Part shown: positions 28,941 through 38,395 of the stretch, in pieces | Layout: each line of letters begins with the position of its first letter | How positions within the stretch are numbered: the stretch's first letter is position 1 | Assembly: GCF_000015765.1 (NCBI RefSeq) | Contig: NC_008942.1 | Span: 1 to 64,000, forward strand | Direction: 5' to 3' | Length of the DNA: 64,000 nucleotides | Source: Methanocorpusculum labreanum Z | GTDB lineage: Archaea; Halobacteriota; Methanomicrobia; Methanomicrobiales; Methanocorpusculaceae | Position numbers and translations under genes: made by a program | The notes under the pieces: model-generated | Seen by the model: the letters and a program-made list of their open reading frames with translations, nothing else | The model's database searches: none | What the model was told of the DNA's origin: nothing

Positions 28941-30884
28941 ATGAAATCACGTGATATAGCACTCGTCGGCATTTTACTTGCCGCCGGGGCAATTGCCCGA
29001 TACATCTCCTTATTCGTACCGGGCGCGATCGTCGCGAATCTGACGATCGCATTCTACTGCCTTGCGATCATCCTCGTCGTCCCGAAGTTCAAAGAAGCTC
29101 TCGGGATAGGCGTTGTAGCCGGAATTATTTGTGCGGTTTTCTCGCATTCGATCTTTCCTTTGGGAAACCTGATCTCGGAGCCGGTCGGTGCTGTGGTCTG
29201 TTTGGCGGTGTATAAACTCGTCAAGGATCATACCCGCCTCGCTCCGGCAATTTCAACCGCGATCGCCACCCCTGCGAGCGGTTTTACCTTCATCATCGTC
29301 ACCTGCTTCGTGATGTTCTTCACGACCGAAACGACCGTCGCAACTGTCGCGGCTTTCGCGATCGCCCTGATCCCGATCGTGATGAGCGCCATGATCGTGA
29401 ACGTCATCATCGCCCAGATCATCGCCATGCCGGCAACTTCGGTCATGCAGAAGACGAAGACCGTCATCGAAACTACCCACACCGAGGCAGCGCCGAGCGA
29501 TTCGGTCGCCTTGGATAAGCTTACGTTCACCTACCAGGCGGCAGACACCCCGGCCCTCGACAACGTTTCGCTCAAAATAAATCCGGGCGAGTTCGTTGTG
29601 ATCAACGGACCTTCCGGAGCCGGAAAAACCACACTTGCCCGTGCGATTTCCGGTGTCCTCGTTCACGCATACGGCGGGACCGTTGTTGGAAACATCTCTC
29701 TTTATGGAAAATACGCCGACGAATACAAAGACGTGACCGATCTCTCTTCCAAGGTCGGCATGGTGTTTGACGATGCCGATGCCCAGCTGATCTTCACCAC
29801 GGTCGAGGAGGAGATCCTCACCGGTCTGGAGACCCGGGACCTTCCCGAGGACGAGGTCAGAAAGAAACTCGACGAGATCTACAAGATCACCTGTACGGGC
29901 CATATAACGGACCGTGCCCCGCACAATCTCTCCGGCGGTCAGAAACAGCGTGTTGCGATGGCCGCGGCCCTTTCCCGCGAGACCCCTCTCCTTGTTCTGG
30001 ACGAGGCGACCTCCGAGCTGGACAAAAACGCCAGACGCCAGGTGTACAACCTGCTGAAGGGCATGACGGCGAAGGGCCACACGATCGTTTTGATCGAGCA
30101 CATGATCGATGAGACGATCGGCTATGCCACCCGGATGATCACGATGAACGATGGGAAAATCGTCTACGACGGCGTTCCAAAACCCGAGAACACCAACTAC
30201 CCGGCACTCGAAAAGACCGCCCCGACCCACGAAGTCGTGCTGGAGGCAGCCCACGTCACGCACAAATTCCCCGAGGTCCTTGCTCTGGACGATGTCTCGG
30301 TCTCCTTTTACAAAGGCGAGATCGCGGCGATCCTGGGTGAGAACGGATCGGGCAAGACGACGCTCGTCAAACACCTGAACGGTCTTCTCCGCCCGGATAC
30401 GGGATCGGTCCTGCTGAAAGGCGAGGACATTTCGTCCCGTTCGATCCCGGAGATCGCAAAGCATGTCGGTCTGGTGTTCCAGAACCCGGACACGATGCTG
30501 TTTGAAAACACCTGCGAGAAGGAGATCCAGTTCGGTCTGAAGAACATCGGGAAGTCCGATGCCTCGCCGGCGGTCTCTCTTGCGGCCGTGGGCCTTGCCG
30601 GCAAAGCCAAGATGAATCCCCGTCATTTAAGCCGCGGCGAACGCCAGAAGCTTGCTCTTGCCTGCGTTCTCGCGACAGGCCAGGAGATCGTTATCATGGA
30701 TGAGCCGACGACGGGTCTCGACCCGAAGGAGTCGTATGAGATCATGCGTGTTCTGACCGGAATGCGGAATGAGGGTAAGACGATTCTTATGGTGACGCAC
30801 GACCCCGTACTTGCCGGCAAATATGCGGATCGGATCATCGAGATGGAAACGGGTAAAATAACCGCGATCCGCGGAGGTGAGTGA
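28941..30884 (+). CDS. ECF transporter: S component fused to two ATPase domains
   Basis: 647 residues. Residues ~1-165 are a six-helix S-component-like membrane domain. Residues ~188-415 and ~432-645 are two ABC ATPases of the EcfA type. NBD1 has Walker A GPSGAGKT (223-230), signature LSGGQ and LLVLDEATSELD, but its Q-loop reads VFDDAD. NBD2 has GENGSGKT (466-473), a proper VFQNPD Q-loop and IVIMDEPTTGLD, but signature LSRGE. So the two sites are asymmetric. EcfT follows immediately, making a complete group I-like importer. The vitamin or amino-acid substrate is not identifiable; the S domain recalls tryptophan/thiamine-type families. Confidence 0.92.
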   Translation: MKSRDIALVGILLAAGAIARYISLFVPGAIVANLTIAFYCLAIILVVPKFKEALGIGVVAGIICAVFSHSIFPLGNLISEPVGAVVCLAVYKLVKDHTRLAPAISTAIATPASGFTFIIVTCFVMFFTTETTVATVAAFAIALIPIVMSAMIVNVIIAQIIAMPATSVMQKTKTVIETTHTEAAPSDSVALDKLTFTYQAADTPALDNVSLKINPGEFVVINGPSGAGKTTLARAISGVLVHAYGGTVVGNISLYGKYADEYKDVTDLSSKVGMVFDDADAQLIFTTVEEEILTGLETRDLPEDEVRKKLDEIYKITCTGHITDRAPHNLSGGQKQRVAMAAALSRETPLLVLDEATSELDKNARRQVYNLLKGMTAKGHTIVLIEHMIDETIGYATRMITMNDGKIVYDGVPKPENTNYPALEKTAPTHEVVLEAAHVTHKFPEVLALDDVSVSFYKGEIAAILGENGSGKTTLVKHLNGLLRPDTGSVLLKGEDISSRSIPEIAKHVGLVFQNPDTMLFENTCEKEIQFGLKNIGKSDASPAVSLAAVGLAGKAKMNPRHLSRGERQKLALACVLATGQEIVIMDEPTTGLDPKESYEIMRVLTGMRNEGKTILMVTHDPVLAGKYADRIIEMETGKITAIRGGE

Positions 30885-30885
30885 A

Positions 30886-31653
30886 ATGGAAGACATTATG
30901 CAGTATATCCCGGGGAACCGGTTCGTTCACCGGTTGTCGCCGATGACGAAGATCTTCTTCGCGGTCGGTATGATGTTTGCGGCGATCTTCACGTCGAATC
31001 CGCTGCTTCTTGGCGGGATGGTCATTTTCGTGCTGGCGTTCGCGGCGATCGGCGGGCTTTTCAAGCCGCTTATCCGTCAGGTCCCTCTGCTGATCATTCT
31101 GGGTCTTGCTCTGGTCGTTTTGACGGTGCTTACGAGTGCGTCGGGCGATGTGCTGTTTACGCTTCTGCCGAACGGGATGTTCCCGGTGACGACGGGCGCG
31201 ATCCTGTTCGCGGTGCAGATGGCTCTCCGGTTTGCGGTGCTGATCTTCTCGTTCCAGCTGCTGGTTATCTCGACCCAGCCGCGTGATCTGGTGAATGCTC
31301 TCTACACGCTCAGGATCCCGGGCGATTACGCACTGATGTTCCTGATTGCGATCCGGTTTATCCCGACTTTGCAGAGAGAGGGTGTCAGGATCAATGAGGC
31401 TCAGCTTTCCCGCGGGTATTTCCCGGGAGGCGGGGTCATCGGGAAGCTGAAGCAGCTCGGCCCGGTTATGCTTCCGTTGATGCTGAATTCACTCGCAAAG
31501 GCGGATACGCTTGGTCTGACGATCGATATGCGTGGATACCGGAAAGCGTCAGAGCACCGGAGAAAGATGGTCTACCATGCGGCGGATTTCGTGACGGTTC
31601 TGGTCGTTGCGGCAATCCTTGCAGGCATCGTGTATGTGACGTTCTTCCTGTAA
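30886..31653 (+). CDS. ecfT: ECF transporter transmembrane component EcfT
   Basis: 255 residues from the ATG at 30886, preceded by GGAGGTGA; a GTG nine bases upstream is less likely. EcfT couples ATP hydrolysis to toppling of the S component. Four to five membrane helices are visible, with the CbiQ-family cytoplasmic coupling helices in 'RFIPTLQREGVRINEAQLSRG' (~165-185) and 'TLGLTIDMRGYRKASEHR' (~210). The latter matches the conserved A-R-G motif in the form 'MRGY'. The start is one base after the stop of the fused ATPase gene. A T-rich stop region lies at 31664-31686. Confidence 0.93.
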   Translation: MEDIMQYIPGNRFVHRLSPMTKIFFAVGMMFAAIFTSNPLLLGGMVIFVLAFAAIGGLFKPLIRQVPLLIILGLALVVLTVLTSASGDVLFTLLPNGMFPVTTGAILFAVQMALRFAVLIFSFQLLVISTQPRDLVNALYTLRIPGDYALMFLIAIRFIPTLQREGVRINEAQLSRGYFPGGGVIGKLKQLGPVMLPLMLNSLAKADTLGLTIDMRGYRKASEHRRKMVYHAADFVTVLVVAAILAGIVYVTFFL

Positions 31654-31663
31654 GAAGAACTTA

Positions 31664-31686
31664 ACAATTCTTTTTTTATTTTTTAG
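31664..31686 (+). terminator. T-rich terminator after ecfT
   Basis: CTTTTTTTATTTTTT lies 15-30 bp beyond the ecfT stop, a typical archaeal oligo-T stop. Confidence 0.5.
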
Positions 31687-31759
31687 AAAATCTTCTCTGG
31701 TCCTATTCTACGAGATCATTGAATCATTCATCACTGATAGAGGGAAGTGGGATGAGTGT

Positions 31760-31912
31760 GGATAGATGAAGTTATTTAACCGCGAATCTCCGCGAATTCT
31801 CGCGAATCGCATTTTTCTTGCGTCGTCGTGCTCTGCTCCGGCTTATCGCCTACGCAGGAATCGCACGCCGTCTTGAAAAATGCTGGGGAAAAACCCGCGT
31901 GCGGGTTTTTCT
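31760..31912 (+). repeat. 153-bp inverted repeat, left copy
   Basis: This copy and the segment 32949-33101 are reverse complements with only two mismatches in 153 bases. Internally the outer end has three tandem 10-bp units beginning CGCGAAT (31781-31810). The inner end is a 24-bp palindrome, GAAAAACCCGC-GT-GCGGGTTTTTC (31888-31911), shaped like a terminator. The repeat codes for nothing obvious. Confidence 0.93.
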
Positions 31913-32174
31913 TAAAGGTTATTCTGTATTTTTGGGTATGAGTTGAAGTAAATCAAAAGATTTCACATAACTTTATGGTAATAAAAAGAATAGAGATACA
32001 TATGGTACGGAAAAGTCAACCAAATTGTCAAACTATTTTAGGTATGTGTAGGCATATGTCCAATGGTGATGGACGAAAAAGTGGTGGTTTCGTGGATTTA
32101 TACATGGGTAAAAATCTCGCCACAAGTATTAGAAACAAAAATAGATTTAAGAAATTCCCCTTCTAGGTGAGCTC

Positions 32175-32912
32175 ATGAAAGGCATTGACCACATGTATAT
32201 TAGTTTAGCATGGGGTTTTTTGATAATGTCTCCAATTATTGTTACATATCCTATATATTTCGTTGCATTTATCGTAGGAATAGGGATTGGGGCTATTTTG
32301 CCTGATGTCGATGGAAGTATCTCTCCGTATGAATATAAAAGTGACGCCATGCGGACTTTTGGTATCGCCACGAAAAAAGCATACAAAACGACTGCTTGGG
32401 TTTTCAAGTCGGTTAAGCCAAACTATAATCGGGAATTACACACCCACCGTGGGATATTGCATAGTTTCCCCGGGGCTCTATTATGTATCTCTATTGTAAT
32501 TATTCCTATCAATTTGATCATTTATTTCCTTGGATTATGGGACCTTCCTATTCTTGTAGCGTCGGGAGGCATATATGTTGGGGCATTCTTCCATCTTTTT
32601 GAAGATTGTTGTACATGGACTGGAGTTCGTTTGTTTGCCCCTTACAAAAATGTGCGATTATATGGAGAAATTAATACCTGTTCTAGTCGAAGGGAAGAAA
32701 ACCGACCCCAAATGTATGGTAAAATATTTGCATTGCTTGGTGTAGGTTGTGTATGTTTTTTTGCCTTACATAATTTGCCCATCTTTGCTTCAGTAGCGTT
32801 TATTTATGATTTATCCCCATTTGTACTCATTATCATAACAACGGTCATTAGTTTCTTTCTCTGGTATATTATCTTTCTATATTCTGGTGGTAAGATAGAA
32901 ACTAATTCGTAA
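32175..32912 (+). CDS. Membrane-bound metal-dependent hydrolase-like protein (YdjM/DUF457 type)
   Basis: 245 residues with about six membrane helices. Conserved polar motifs fit the YdjM/DUF457 family: 'GAILPDVDGSISP' near 40, 'HTHRGILHSFPGALL' near 93 and 'GAFFHLFEDCCTWTGVRLFAPYK' near 140. The Asp/His set could bind a metal at the membrane face. Base composition is clearly more AT-rich than in the flanking core genes, and codons such as ATA/TTA are frequent, suggesting transfer. The gene is the sole occupant of the segment enclosed by the 153-bp inverted repeats; the right repeat supplies its terminator hairpin 38 bp after the stop. Confidence 0.82.
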   Translation: MKGIDHMYISLAWGFLIMSPIIVTYPIYFVAFIVGIGIGAILPDVDGSISPYEYKSDAMRTFGIATKKAYKTTAWVFKSVKPNYNRELHTHRGILHSFPGALLCISIVIIPINLIIYFLGLWDLPILVASGGIYVGAFFHLFEDCCTWTGVRLFAPYKNVRLYGEINTCSSRREENRPQMYGKIFALLGVGCVCFFALHNLPIFASVAFIYDLSPFVLIIITTVISFFLWYIIFLYSGGKIETNS

Positions 32913-32948
32913 TTGCTGATATATTTTATGAATGGTGAGATGAATAAC

Positions 32949-33101
32949 AGAAAAACCCGCACGCGGGTTTTTCCCCAGCATTTTTCCAGACGGCGTGCGA
33001 TTCCTGCGCAGGCGATAAGCCGGAGCAGAGCACGACGACGCAAGAAAAATGCGATTCGCGAGAATTCGCGGAGATTCGCGGTTAAATAACTTCATCTATC
33101 C
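32949..33101 (-). repeat. 153-bp inverted repeat, right copy
   Basis: Reverse complement of 31760-31912 with two mismatches. It begins with the palindromic hairpin (32950-32973) and ends with the CGCGAAT triplet array, 4 bp short of the stop of the next minus-strand gene (33106). Spacer between copies is 1,036 bp. Confidence 0.93.
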
Positions 33102-33105
33102 CGAC

Positions 33106-33744
33106 TCACTCCCCCTTCTTCAGCTCATCCATTCTCGCTTTCAGATCGCTTTGAAACGCCTCGAAAGCTTCCTTGATCTCGGCATTTCTCTCATAGCATC
33201 TCTCCCTCCATTGACCAGACGCTTCGCTGTCTTCCTTTTCCTCCTTGTCCGGGATATATGCCAACGCGTAATCGAATGCCTGGTTCATGCAGACGTCGAT
33301 AAAAGTATTTAGACTCTGCAGGACCTTTTCCGGGATGAAGGAGACGTTTGCCTCCGTCATATACTGTATCGTATGGGCTTTTTTCAAAAGATCATCCGAT
33401 CTTTCCCGATGCCATTTGTTTCGTGCTTTTGCGTCGCTCGCCGGAGGCCCGTCTTTCAGCTCCTTATCCGGATGCAGCAGTAATGCCGTCGAATAGCAAT
33501 GAGAAATCACCGGAGCCAGATCCCGATATGCCTGAAGTTCTGGATTCATCATGGCATTCAGCGCCGACTCGGTATTTGCCAGATTGTCCTGGATGTTCAG
33601 CATCTCCGCGATCGACCGTTTCTGGAATCTGGACAGCAGAACGGCCACGGTTATTGAGATCAGGATCCCTATGATCGTCAAACCTATGCTGACTATGCTC
33701 ATATCGATGAGGACGTCACCGATCATAATACTCGTAATCGCCAT
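33106..33744 (-). CDS. Unrecognised protein with N-terminal membrane anchor
   Basis: 212 residues. One membrane helix (about residues 14-37, 'IVSIGLTIIGILISITVAVLL') is followed by a long, charged, mostly helical cytoplasmic region containing Lys/Glu/Arg clusters and likely coiled-coil ends. GGAG precedes the ATG. No catalytic motif is visible. It lies between the right 153-bp repeat and the hairpin array, so belongs to the accessory island. Family unknown. Confidence 0.7.
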   Translation of the reverse strand: MAITSIMIGDVLIDMSIVSIGLTIIGILISITVAVLLSRFQKRSIAEMLNIQDNLANTESALNAMMNPELQAYRDLAPVISHCYSTALLLHPDKELKDGPPASDAKARNKWHRERSDDLLKKAHTIQYMTEANVSFIPEKVLQSLNTFIDVCMNQAFDYALAYIPDKEEKEDSEASGQWRERCYERNAEIKEAFEAFQSDLKARMDELKKGE

Positions 33745-34605: not shown

Positions 34606-34893
34606 TTACAATAACTTTCTTCTCTCGCGAAAACTCAAAATATCGACGTTCTCTGTTGAGGTCTTTTCCGGCGTCGAGGATTCCGGTTTTTCCAGACAAT
34701 CCATACACAAAATCATACAGTTTCGAACCTCATCTTTTCCCCCATCGCTCACAGGTTTAATGTGCTTGGCATCCCAGCCTCCCCGTCCTACCGCATTTCC
34801 CCTGTTTGCATAGATCAGTTTCTTCCCGCAGATCTGACAATATCCGTTCACTTTCTCAAACGCATTTCTTACTACATCTTCAGTAAAGGTCAT
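34606..34893 (-). CDS. HNH endonuclease domain protein
   Basis: 95 residues with a complete small HNH fold: CQICGKKL (first zinc pair, ~20), 'WDAKHIKPVSDGGKDEVRNCMILC' with the catalytic His and Asn, and CMDC as the second pair. HNH nucleases of this size occur in restriction, mobile elements and repair. It stands alone and is not next to a methylase. A perfect ATACCTA/TAGGTAT palindrome lies 11 bp before the ATG and GGAGGGA just after it, so expression is probably repressed by a dimeric regulator. Confidence 0.85.
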   Translation of the reverse strand: MTFTEDVVRNAFEKVNGYCQICGKKLIYANRGNAVGRGGWDAKHIKPVSDGGKDEVRNCMILCMDCLEKPESSTPEKTSTENVDILSFRERRKLL

Positions 34894-36163: not shown

Positions 36164-38395
36164 CTATGAAGATGTCACTTCAGTTGTAGTTTCACTGGAT
36201 ATCGTTGAAGTTGATTTTTCCATCATCATATTATAATGGTCAATTTGATTTAACTTTACAAATATTTGTTTAAATATTTCTAGATATCTCTGAACAGATT
36301 CAGAATCCGGACAGATATCAAAATCATCAAAAATCCCGTGAGAACCGGCATTAAGATACGATAAGAGGGATTTACAAATTATTTTATCAGTTCCTTCAAA
36401 TTGATCTATAACTTTATGATAGTCTACATTTCCTATTATTTTAAAGTATGATTCCAATATTCTTCGCAAAGTATTTTGAATTGCAGGACTGATGTTCGAT
36501 GTATCTTGTATCTCAGACCAAAGTAATGTATATGAATTTTCTATTGGATCCTTATCTTTATTCTCTATTTTAGATATGTTCTGTGCTTTTTTTACCATCC
36601 AAAAACCAGCTATATTGGGATAATCTATTTCTAATCTATATGCTACTTCTTTGTGGAAATAGACATTATGAGTTAAGACAAACACTTGCCGAATTCCATG
36701 ATTATCATTTTTACAGTATTCAAACAGATTCCTCACCAAAGTACTTACAATAAAGAGAACTCCACTATCTAAACTTGAAATAGGGTCATCAACAATCACT
36801 ATTTTGTCATTTTCAAGATTATTTGGGTCACTTTGACCTTGAATAAGATAATAAAAATACAAAAAAGTGATAAAGTTTCTTTCCCCGTCGCTCAATGTAT
36901 CATGAGCATTCTCTCCGTTTGGTCGAATTATCCGATACGTATTCTTATATTCATCATCAGGATTTACATCTAATTTGAAGCCACTAAAGCCAACTTTCGT
37001 TAATATATCCTCAATATCATCAACCGTCTTCGTCACATTTATGAGGTTTTTTTGTTTCTCTGAAATCTCTTTCTTGATATTTTTTATGCGCTCTTGATGC
37101 CCATCAATATTCTTAGTTAAACTAGCCTTTCCTTTTTCAAATCCACTCATTTCCTTCTTATATTCGGTAATTGGATCTATAAGTTCATTAACAAGATATT
37201 GCCAGATTAATTTTTTACAATGCTCTTTCTCATTTTTCAGATCATGTATAATAGCATTATTTTTATTAATTGATACATTTATATTGTCAATATTATCATT
37301 GATATTGTTAATTAAAGGAATCACACTTTCAATTTCCACTGATTTTGATGGAAATGTAATTTTATTTTCAATGATTATTTTGTTTGATTTAAATATTATA
37401 GAAAGTGCCTCCCTGTTTTTCTCGATATCGTTATAATCTAAACCCGGAATTGGGCTATCTATTATGCTATCTAATTTTTCGAGACATGATGAAATATGAG
37501 ATATATAATCTTCTTTCATGTTCTTGAGAGCATTATACTTATTATCAAATGCCTTATCAAAAAATGACTTTATTTCTTTTTGAATTGAAGAGTCAAGTGT
37601 ACGTTGACAATATGGGCATTTTCCATTAGATTTCTCAGCATAACTTACTCCCTCTCTCACCCAATCACTATTATTTAAATATTCAATTAGTTCTCCGATT
37701 TCTGAATCTGAAGTCCCAGTGATTACTTCCATTAATAATGGACATTTTTCAATATCTGAAATATCTTTAACGTCAATTTTGTTGATGGTGCCATATTCTC
37801 TTTTATTATCATTATCGAACGCTGCTATATATCTCGATTTGATGTCATCCAACGAACTAACATTATTCTCATCAAAATTTTCGGATTCTTCCAAGCATTT
37901 TATTGCAAATGTTGTTTTACTTCCTCTAGTTCCAACTAATGCTTTACTATACGTCTCGCCATATTTTTTTTCTTCCCTCCAGCAACGTTCATAAAATATT
38001 TCCACTTTTTTCTGTTTTCTAGTATTTAAATCCTCAATATTCTTATTGCAACCATCAATTTTCTTCTTATGATCATCTATCTCGCCCTGTTTTTTTGCAA
38101 TAAATTCCCGCGCTTCTTTTGATTCCACTCCCAAGGTGAAAATCCCTTTAATAGGATCATCTCTATTAAAATTAGCTTCAATAAATTCTTTGTTGTAAAT
38201 TAAAACAGGTATTTTTCGATTATTTTCCCAGATAATTTTACTATTTATTGATATTGAGCAATCCTTGAGATATTTAGCGAGAGTACTTTTTCCAGATCCA
38301 TTCCCTCCATAGATCATATTGATTTTTTTGGGGAGCATGCATCCCCCTTCACCAGTATAGGTCGCAAGATCCTTGATGTATATTTCTGATATCAT
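36164..38395 (-). CDS. AAA_13 ATPase, RloC/PrrC-like putative anticodon nuclease
   Basis: 743 residues. An ABC-type ATPase is split by a coiled-coil: Walker A GGNGSGKST (30-38), two cysteines CPYC (260-263) that could form a zinc hook, signature LSDGERNF (501-508), Walker B KIVIVDDPISSLD (531-543) and LTHN (574-577). The C-terminal region has R644, E648 and H686. This spacing is close to the R320-E324-H356 catalytic set described for PrrC, but similar residues occur widely in AAA_13 proteins. The gene is far more AT-rich than its neighbours, which suggests recent transfer. A phage-defence tRNA nuclease is the leading idea. Confidence 0.75.
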   Translation of the reverse strand: MISEIYIKDLATYTGEGGCMLPKKINMIYGGNGSGKSTLAKYLKDCSISINSKIIWENNRKIPVLIYNKEFIEANFNRDDPIKGIFTLGVESKEAREFIAKKQGEIDDHKKKIDGCNKNIEDLNTRKQKKVEIFYERCWREEKKYGETYSKALVGTRGSKTTFAIKCLEESENFDENNVSSLDDIKSRYIAAFDNDNKREYGTINKIDVKDISDIEKCPLLMEVITGTSDSEIGELIEYLNNSDWVREGVSYAEKSNGKCPYCQRTLDSSIQKEIKSFFDKAFDNKYNALKNMKEDYISHISSCLEKLDSIIDSPIPGLDYNDIEKNREALSIIFKSNKIIIENKITFPSKSVEIESVIPLINNINDNIDNINVSINKNNAIIHDLKNEKEHCKKLIWQYLVNELIDPITEYKKEMSGFEKGKASLTKNIDGHQERIKNIKKEISEKQKNLINVTKTVDDIEDILTKVGFSGFKLDVNPDDEYKNTYRIIRPNGENAHDTLSDGERNFITFLYFYYLIQGQSDPNNLENDKIVIVDDPISSLDSGVLFIVSTLVRNLFEYCKNDNHGIRQVFVLTHNVYFHKEVAYRLEIDYPNIAGFWMVKKAQNISKIENKDKDPIENSYTLLWSEIQDTSNISPAIQNTLRRILESYFKIIGNVDYHKVIDQFEGTDKIICKSLLSYLNAGSHGIFDDFDICPDSESVQRYLEIFKQIFVKLNQIDHYNMMMEKSTSTISSETTTEVTSS

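Follow-up and report, generated by a model that had tools for sequence, protein, structure and literature searches.

A MITE-like palindromic element in Methanocorpusculum labreanum with a ydjM cassette in a slot whose cargo differs between sister species

Main Finding

The two long inverted repeats around a ydjM-family gene near the start of the Methanocorpusculum labreanum Z genome mark an element of a MITE-like, palindromic family; this member carries cargo, and its ends have decayed. The stretch analysed comprises positions 1 to 64,000 of contig NC_008942.1 and is called the window hereafter. Sister species have different cargo at this site, within conserved arms and flanks. The reading that we prefer, and hold to be probable, is that the repeats are the two arms of a single family member in which the ydjM cassette replaces the loop, and that recombination between arms swaps the cargo.

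Results

Organization of the ydjM cassette

The left arm (31760-31912, forward strand) and the right arm (32949-33101, reverse strand) are in opposite orientation and match without gaps at 151 of 153 positions, the two mismatches falling at arm positions 93 and 115. Inverted similarity extends further outward, to 31740 and 33121 (173 nt, 94%). In shuffles of the window, zero occurrences are expected for a 20-base core of the arm, and the arm recurs across the genome (see below), so that a chance match is excluded. Each arm contains three inward-pointing CGCGAAT units, or iterons, at 10-bp spacing (iteron score 21/21). In the left arm they start at 31781, 31791, and 31801 (31781-31807, forward strand), and their mirror images start at 33054, 33064, and 33074 (33054-33080, reverse strand); the same arrangement adjoins GxxExxY genes. 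The inner end of each arm is a terminator-like palindromic hairpin (31888-31911 on the forward strand, 32950-32973 on the reverse). These repeats, units, and palindromes had all been reported in a first-pass annotation of the window and are confirmed here, together with the AT-rich interior described below. Each arm also contains a second, longer, imperfect hairpin, at about 31809-31883 in the left arm (forward strand; fold z -3.45) and, as its mirror, at about 32978-33052 in the right arm (reverse strand), with compensatory changes between copies.

The 1,036 bp enclosed by the arms (31913-32948) have a GC content of 0.357, compared with 0.496 for the window, and contain a ydjM-family gene (32175-32912, forward strand) for a membrane protein of 245 aa (Pfam PF04307, E 5e-18), as well as a doubtful small ORF of 63 aa (31975-32166). 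The left neighbour is a CbiQ-type cobalt transport gene (30877-31653, forward strand; Pfam PF02361, E 2e-31), orthologs of which mark the same site in 14 of 25 genomes of the genus. On the right, the 3' end of a hypothetical gene (33106-33744, reverse strand) reaches the arm. No Rfam family scored at or above its gathering score near the feature, and two sub-threshold matches there were judged to be chance. Further to the right, on the reverse strand, are a gene for a 95-aa HNH endonuclease-type protein (34606-34893; PF01844, E 1e-7) and, a few kilobases from the cassette, one for a 743-aa AAA_13 protein (36164-38395), which matches the PADLOC candidate defence model PDC-S06 (E 3e-244) and, weakly, PrrC.

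A dispersed family of palindromic elements

The genome is a single contig of 1,804,962 bases (1.80 Mbp according to the available part of PMC3035222). Arm matches found in it by BLAST group into at least 34 loci, a lower bound set by scoring 40 of 77 first-look candidates, and the genome stretches fetched contain 50 matches of at least 100 bp. The absence of other copies, which the first-pass annotation had named as an argument against mobility, is thus contradicted. Seventeen neighbouring pairs of arms face each other. Twelve of these pairs enclose a loop of 44-48 bp, and the loops of the other five measure 485, 488, 1,036 (the window), 2,359, and 4,580 bp. An extra pair around the GxxExxY gene at 841 kb (841747-842181) is split by a 55-bp insert. 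A nested unit of 55 bp with two small hairpins was noticed inside arms at 841582-841636, 562202-562257, and 297716-297772 of this genome, its position and orientation within the arm being variable.

In most members, then, the arms enclose the short loop, and in the window the AT-rich ydjM cassette would have taken its place. Other cargoes replace the loop elsewhere in this genome: a GxxExxY nuclease gene in three elements (the proteins are 90-92% identical, and each is encoded by the sole gene of its element), a gene for a 1,278-aa protein matching PADLOC PD-Lambda-4 (E 2e-78), and one for a DUF4062 protein. That ydjM might be a defence gene is a guess, suggested by the company it keeps. Of 26 pairs compared across this genome and its relatives, 19 are compact, with 81-92% identity between their arms and, in nearly every case, type A opposite type B; in the seven with long loops arm identity is 89-98.5% in six and 83% in one, and A stands opposite A in five, types A and B being assigned by simple motif rules.

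The folding of the arm into two hairpins is supported by changes on both sides at five of 34 base pairs, and the arm covariation score is 0.075, compared with 0.032 in shuffles, none of 500 of which reached it. Moreover, a simple ORF scan places all 34 own loci between genes, 16 of them between convergent genes. Arms serving mainly as bidirectional terminators or structured RNA signals, and kept for that function, could look like this. We nevertheless regard such a role as an unlikely explanation, given that 18 of the 34 loci lack convergent neighbours and that the elements vary in presence among close relatives and are flanked by target duplications (see below). A terminator activity as a side effect is compatible with a mobile element.

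Terminal repeats, target duplications, and empty sites

The outer end common to the copies continues beyond the 153 bp and finishes in TAGGACTTACGCGGTGTT. With up to five errors, both such ends are found at 11 of the 34 own loci, one end at another 11, and none at 12, including the window. When no more than two mismatches are allowed, TAGGACTTACGCGGTGTT is present in 11 of 25 genomes of the genus, and a reversed-pattern control never occurs. The six bases flanking 26 two-ended elements (17 from this genome and nine from relatives, including an insertion sequence of genome G004) agree completely in six elements and at five or more bases in 13, the means for shuffled flanks being 0.7 and 3.3. 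A candidate 8-bp target duplication at 910 kb was rejected, since the 26 elements jointly favour 6 bp.

The G004 insertion sequence is a 1.1-kb element with the same ends and a decayed DDE transposase (DDE_5, E 5e-11; DDE_Tnp_1, E 4e-9). Matches to it occur in G004 and G008 only, and the search for a relative of its transposase in the M. labreanum genome gave none. With the ends as evidence, it is well supported that intact family members were moved by a DDE transposase, which seems to have been lost from M. labreanum. The ends TAGGACTTACGCGGTGTT also bound many short elements with unrelated interiors in G004, G008, G005, G010, and others (for instance L366-L370 and L378-L385).

Comparison with relatives reveals sites with and without the element. 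The copy at 910 kb is missing in G020, where the target sequence is intact. In the sister genome G023, 38 bp stands in place of the GxxExxY element found at 841 kb, the 846-kb DUF4062 element (2.78 kb, with both ends present) is cleanly absent, and the 809-kb copy is missing, a clear target duplication not being found there. One GxxExxY element of G023 is in turn missing in M. labreanum, and for five of the 19 stretches of G023 that bear an element there is no long match among those of M. labreanum. Empty orthologous sites, terminal repeats, and 6-bp target duplications show that, over evolutionary time, the family is mobile. In addition, as the 846-kb cargo element was inserted whole, cargo can also travel with the element.

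The window copy lacks these ends: allowing up to five errors, the terminal motif is absent. On its left side, identity with arm-less relatives ends at 31660-31706, and the sequence from about 31686 (the start is approximate) to 31759, on the forward strand, is a decayed outer end without the motif. A canonical element end is present at the same point downstream of CbiQ in G005. The window copy would be unable to transpose because its outer ends have decayed. The earlier suggestion of a dispersed repeat or a composite non-autonomous mobile element is nearly right: the unit forms a MITE-like family, some cargo-bearing members of which are absent at orthologous sites of the sister genome.

Different cargo at the same site in a sister genome

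G023 contains the CbiQ ortholog, both arms, and the right-hand gene, which adjoins the arm there as well, in unchanged order, the left flank (2.9 kb) being 95% and the right flank (3.1 kb) 91% identical to those in the window. The slot between the arms is occupied by an unrelated cargo of 1,721 bp (GC 0.334) encoding a KAP NTPase (PF07693, E 2e-38; PADLOC PDC-S20, E 2e-77). Nothing is shared between the two interiors, the best match being 18 bp. A related KAP gene (44.5% identical) occurs elsewhere, in G020, between arms of the same kind. Changed cargo at one site is one clear case, seen in two species.

The outer left sequence without the terminal motif is common to the window and G023, and a decayed end shared by both species implies that the element predates their split. 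It is simplest to assume that a single element was inherited by both and that its cargo was replaced later. The mechanism that we favour is recombination mediated by the arms: new cargo would enter by homologous recombination of the conserved arms with those of an incoming or ectopic element, and the same exchange would keep the two arms nearly identical. Loss followed by gain at the site may have occurred instead of exchange. It is less likely that two cargo elements inserted independently at one point in the window and G023 lineages; G005, too, has an element at that point.

Alternatively, a dispersed repeat might have inserted twice, independently, to the left and right of a ydjM gene already in place, and single recognisable arms do occur at some own loci, for example at 685, 779, and 1335 kb. 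This origin is highly improbable, however, and the same holds for the two recent insertions proposed in the first-pass annotation. The facing pair is the normal form of the family, the only other close pair being located between two different elements; G023 has the same pair at the same site around other cargo; and the closest relative of the window YdjM in the 24 other genomes of the genus is only 39% identical. As to the annotation's related proposal of a recent duplication or gene conversion, the near-identity of the arms fits recent conversion.

Long, nearly identical inverted repeats can recombine, and a switch in which the arms flip 31913-32948 and thereby alter the expression of ydjM or a neighbour, also put forward earlier, has to be weighed against replacement of the cargo. 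One element of the family, at 1166 kb (1166173-1166435), is found at the same site in G023 (C1:203993-204246, L325) in opposite orientation. There, however, the arm types differ too, which means that it is not a simple flip. At the window site no inverted allele was seen, and the cargo in G023 is a different gene, preventing a comparison of orientation there. Inversion of the window cassette is unsupported, and we consider a switch very unlikely.

Another site differs between the two genomes in its arms. GxxExxY elements at 1637672-1638439 in M. labreanum and in the G023 stretch C1:1590000-1594000 (L127) have different arms within the same flanks; the proteins are about 60% identical between flanks 86-91% identical, possibly a second replaced slot.

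GxxExxY genes and their cargo within the genus

GxxExxY genes of the genus are typically located between long inverted repeats. Five of the 40 stretches scanned (L109, L110, L121, L129, and L135) have no listed repeat around the gene, and in L135 the arm model finds a compact arm pair beside it. In 16 stretches from G006, G011, G012, G013, and G015, convergent pairs of GxxExxY genes bracket 1.4-8.8 kb of cargo; the arm covariance model gives only partial matches in these genomes, of at most 21 bits. We compared 20 cargo proteins, namely 19 of the 38 ORFs of at least 150 aa from the convergent-pair stretches and the KAP protein of G023, with PADLOC. At E<1e-20, a line set after the scores had been seen (the best control reached 3e-19), 11 of the 20 match and nine do not, compared with none of ten flanking controls. 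The matched types are DpnI-type, MmeI-type, type I and type II restriction-modification, GmrSD-like, and KAP, and one of the nine PADLOC-negative proteins has an HsdR domain match in Pfam. No publication on restriction-modification with inverted repeats in Methanocorpusculum was found in the one open-access library searched. A further repeated stretch (L049; 1219959-1220764 in M. labreanum, related copies being present at 1044009 and 1638802 as well as in other genomes) was often seen about 1-3 kb from GxxExxY genes in several species.

Iterons beside GxxExxY genes in other phyla

We collected 81 GxxExxY loci, 80 from reference genomes and one from a viral contig; 80 were testable, six of them from Methanocorpusculum. 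An inverted repeat of at least 40 bits surrounds the gene at 29 loci, compared with one of 274 shifted positions. Iterons were defined as C[AG]CG[AG]AT units at 9-11-bp steps pointing inward, with a cut-off of 18/21. They occur in both flanks at 35 of the 74 loci from outside Methanocorpusculum and at none of 262 controls, and in either flank at 46 of 74 and 12 of 262, respectively; matches pointing outward were found at 24 of 74 loci and four of 262 controls. Going by record titles, Bacteroidota, Spirochaetes, Acidobacteria, Planctomycetes, Chloroflexi (Roseiflexus), and Polyangium are represented among the loci with iterons. The arm covariance model matched near one of the 74 loci (L207), and on inspection this match was judged to be a generic hairpin.

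Since the iteron unit had been partly shaped on these 74 loci, held-out paralogues were tested (15, of which 14 were testable, from 15 bacterial genomes). Iterons in both flanks were found at six of 14 with a score of 17 and at three of 14 with a score of 18, compared with none of 26 controls at either score. For S23 genes of the same genomes the two-flank count is 0 of 28. Some S23 (TIGR02436) genes outside rRNA do lie in inverted repeats lacking iterons (four of 28, against none of 57 controls; L419, L420, L431, and L432). Statistically, the link between GxxExxY and iteron arms is strong, and it extends across phyla. No published link of GxxExxY to repeats or iteron arms was found in the one open-access library searched.

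GxxExxY (TIGR04256/PF13366) belongs to the PD-(D/E)XK nuclease family. Two alignments show no variation at D76, E86-x-K88, and Q100xxxY104, a motif that we take to be RecB/Cas4-like. The predicted fold (mean pLDDT 88, pTM 0.80) has its best structural match in 4ic1 (SSO0001), a Cas4 nuclease (Z 9.3, 107 residues, 4.3 A), although many nucleases of this fold score similarly in Foldseek and 4ic1 is only the best of them. A search of solved structures by sequence gave no credible match (best E 0.015). The model fits a RecB/Cas4-like nuclease.

It is accordingly worth asking whether the arms could be recognition sites of a Cas4-like GxxExxY nuclease that would mobilise or home arm-bounded cassettes, with the compact copies and cargo-bearing ones such as the window's as its non-autonomous dependants, in the way supposed for REP/BIME sequences and RAYT transposases. 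The three own elements that hold a GxxExxY gene and nothing else, the inward iterons in other phyla, the arms recognised by the covariance model around GxxExxY in further species, the convergent pairs that bracket defence cargo, the catalytic residues and Cas4-like fold, and the lack of a DDE transposase relative in the own genome are all consistent with such a role. On the other hand, the ends of the compact copies are those of a DDE-type insertion sequence, which suffices to account for their spread; at 39 of the 74 loci the two-flank cut-off is not reached, and the hold-out count drops at score 18; and GxxExxY may be a passenger that has regulatory sites of its own. The window copy has inward 10-bp iterons in both arms, but no GxxExxY gene between them. 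A GxxExxY-driven element is a reading to be entertained tentatively, and we would not prefer it to a MITE-like member with exchanged cargo.

Discussion

The family resembles MITEs in being short, dispersed, and intergenic, with terminal inverted repeats (both ends at 11 of 34 own loci), target duplications, copies without transposase at 34 or more own loci, presence or absence of the element at orthologous sites in relatives (the members at 841, 846, 809, and 910 kb), and ends in common with a DDE insertion sequence, that of G004. It differs in its arms of about 220 bp with iterons and two hairpins, and in the two arm types opposed in compact copies; the window copy, moreover, has no terminal inverted repeats shared with the insertion sequence.

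REP/BIME sequences are regarded as dependants of RAYT transposases. Inverted pairs of hairpin-forming, palindromic intergenic units, some of them around a nuclease gene, are common to REP/BIME (as far as described in the accessible part of PMC2817692) and the present family; the arms are longer here, and GxxExxY falls into PF13366 (PD-(D/E)XK) rather than the HUH transposase family. Mobile insertion cassettes, in the portion of PMC3913671 at hand, have a passenger gene between the ends of an insertion sequence, and share with the present family a passenger flanked by inverted repeats and the lack of a transposase. The DUF4062 element at 846 kb is of this kind, whereas the elements described here have long arms, a change of cargo in place, and defence-type cargo, and the window copy has a passenger and arms but no terminal motifs. 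The intervening sequences of 23S rRNA with an S23 ORF (PMC4990558, available in part) are likewise considered selfish and contain a small ORF, and some S23 genes lie in inverted repeats. The S23 protein is, however, unrelated, its genes lack two-flank iterons, and the elements described here are not in rRNA. Finally, the GxxExxY family itself is linked to these arms by the three own elements that encode it and by its iteron flanks across phyla, in contrast to the window copy, which does not encode it.

A wider proposal would make the GxxExxY proteins the Cas4-like nucleases of selfish elements that form a widespread but unrecognised class, defined by inward 10-bp C[AG]CG[AG]AT iterons in inverted arms, and that in archaea capture, bracket, and exchange defence cassettes, the ydjM slot being one exchangeable socket. 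We offer it as speculative, its probability being below even.

The published gene table of the species, in its accessible part, counts zero transposable elements (PMC2686161), and yet dozens of intergenic copies of an element are present. The repeats of the window would act as the borders of a slot in which genes are exchanged. A fixed socket in which the gene differs between sister species provides a direct way to study the change of accessory and defence genes in small genomes. At the same time, the link between GxxExxY and iterons across phyla turns a little-studied but abundant "hypothetical protein" into one half of a testable candidate pair of nuclease and site.
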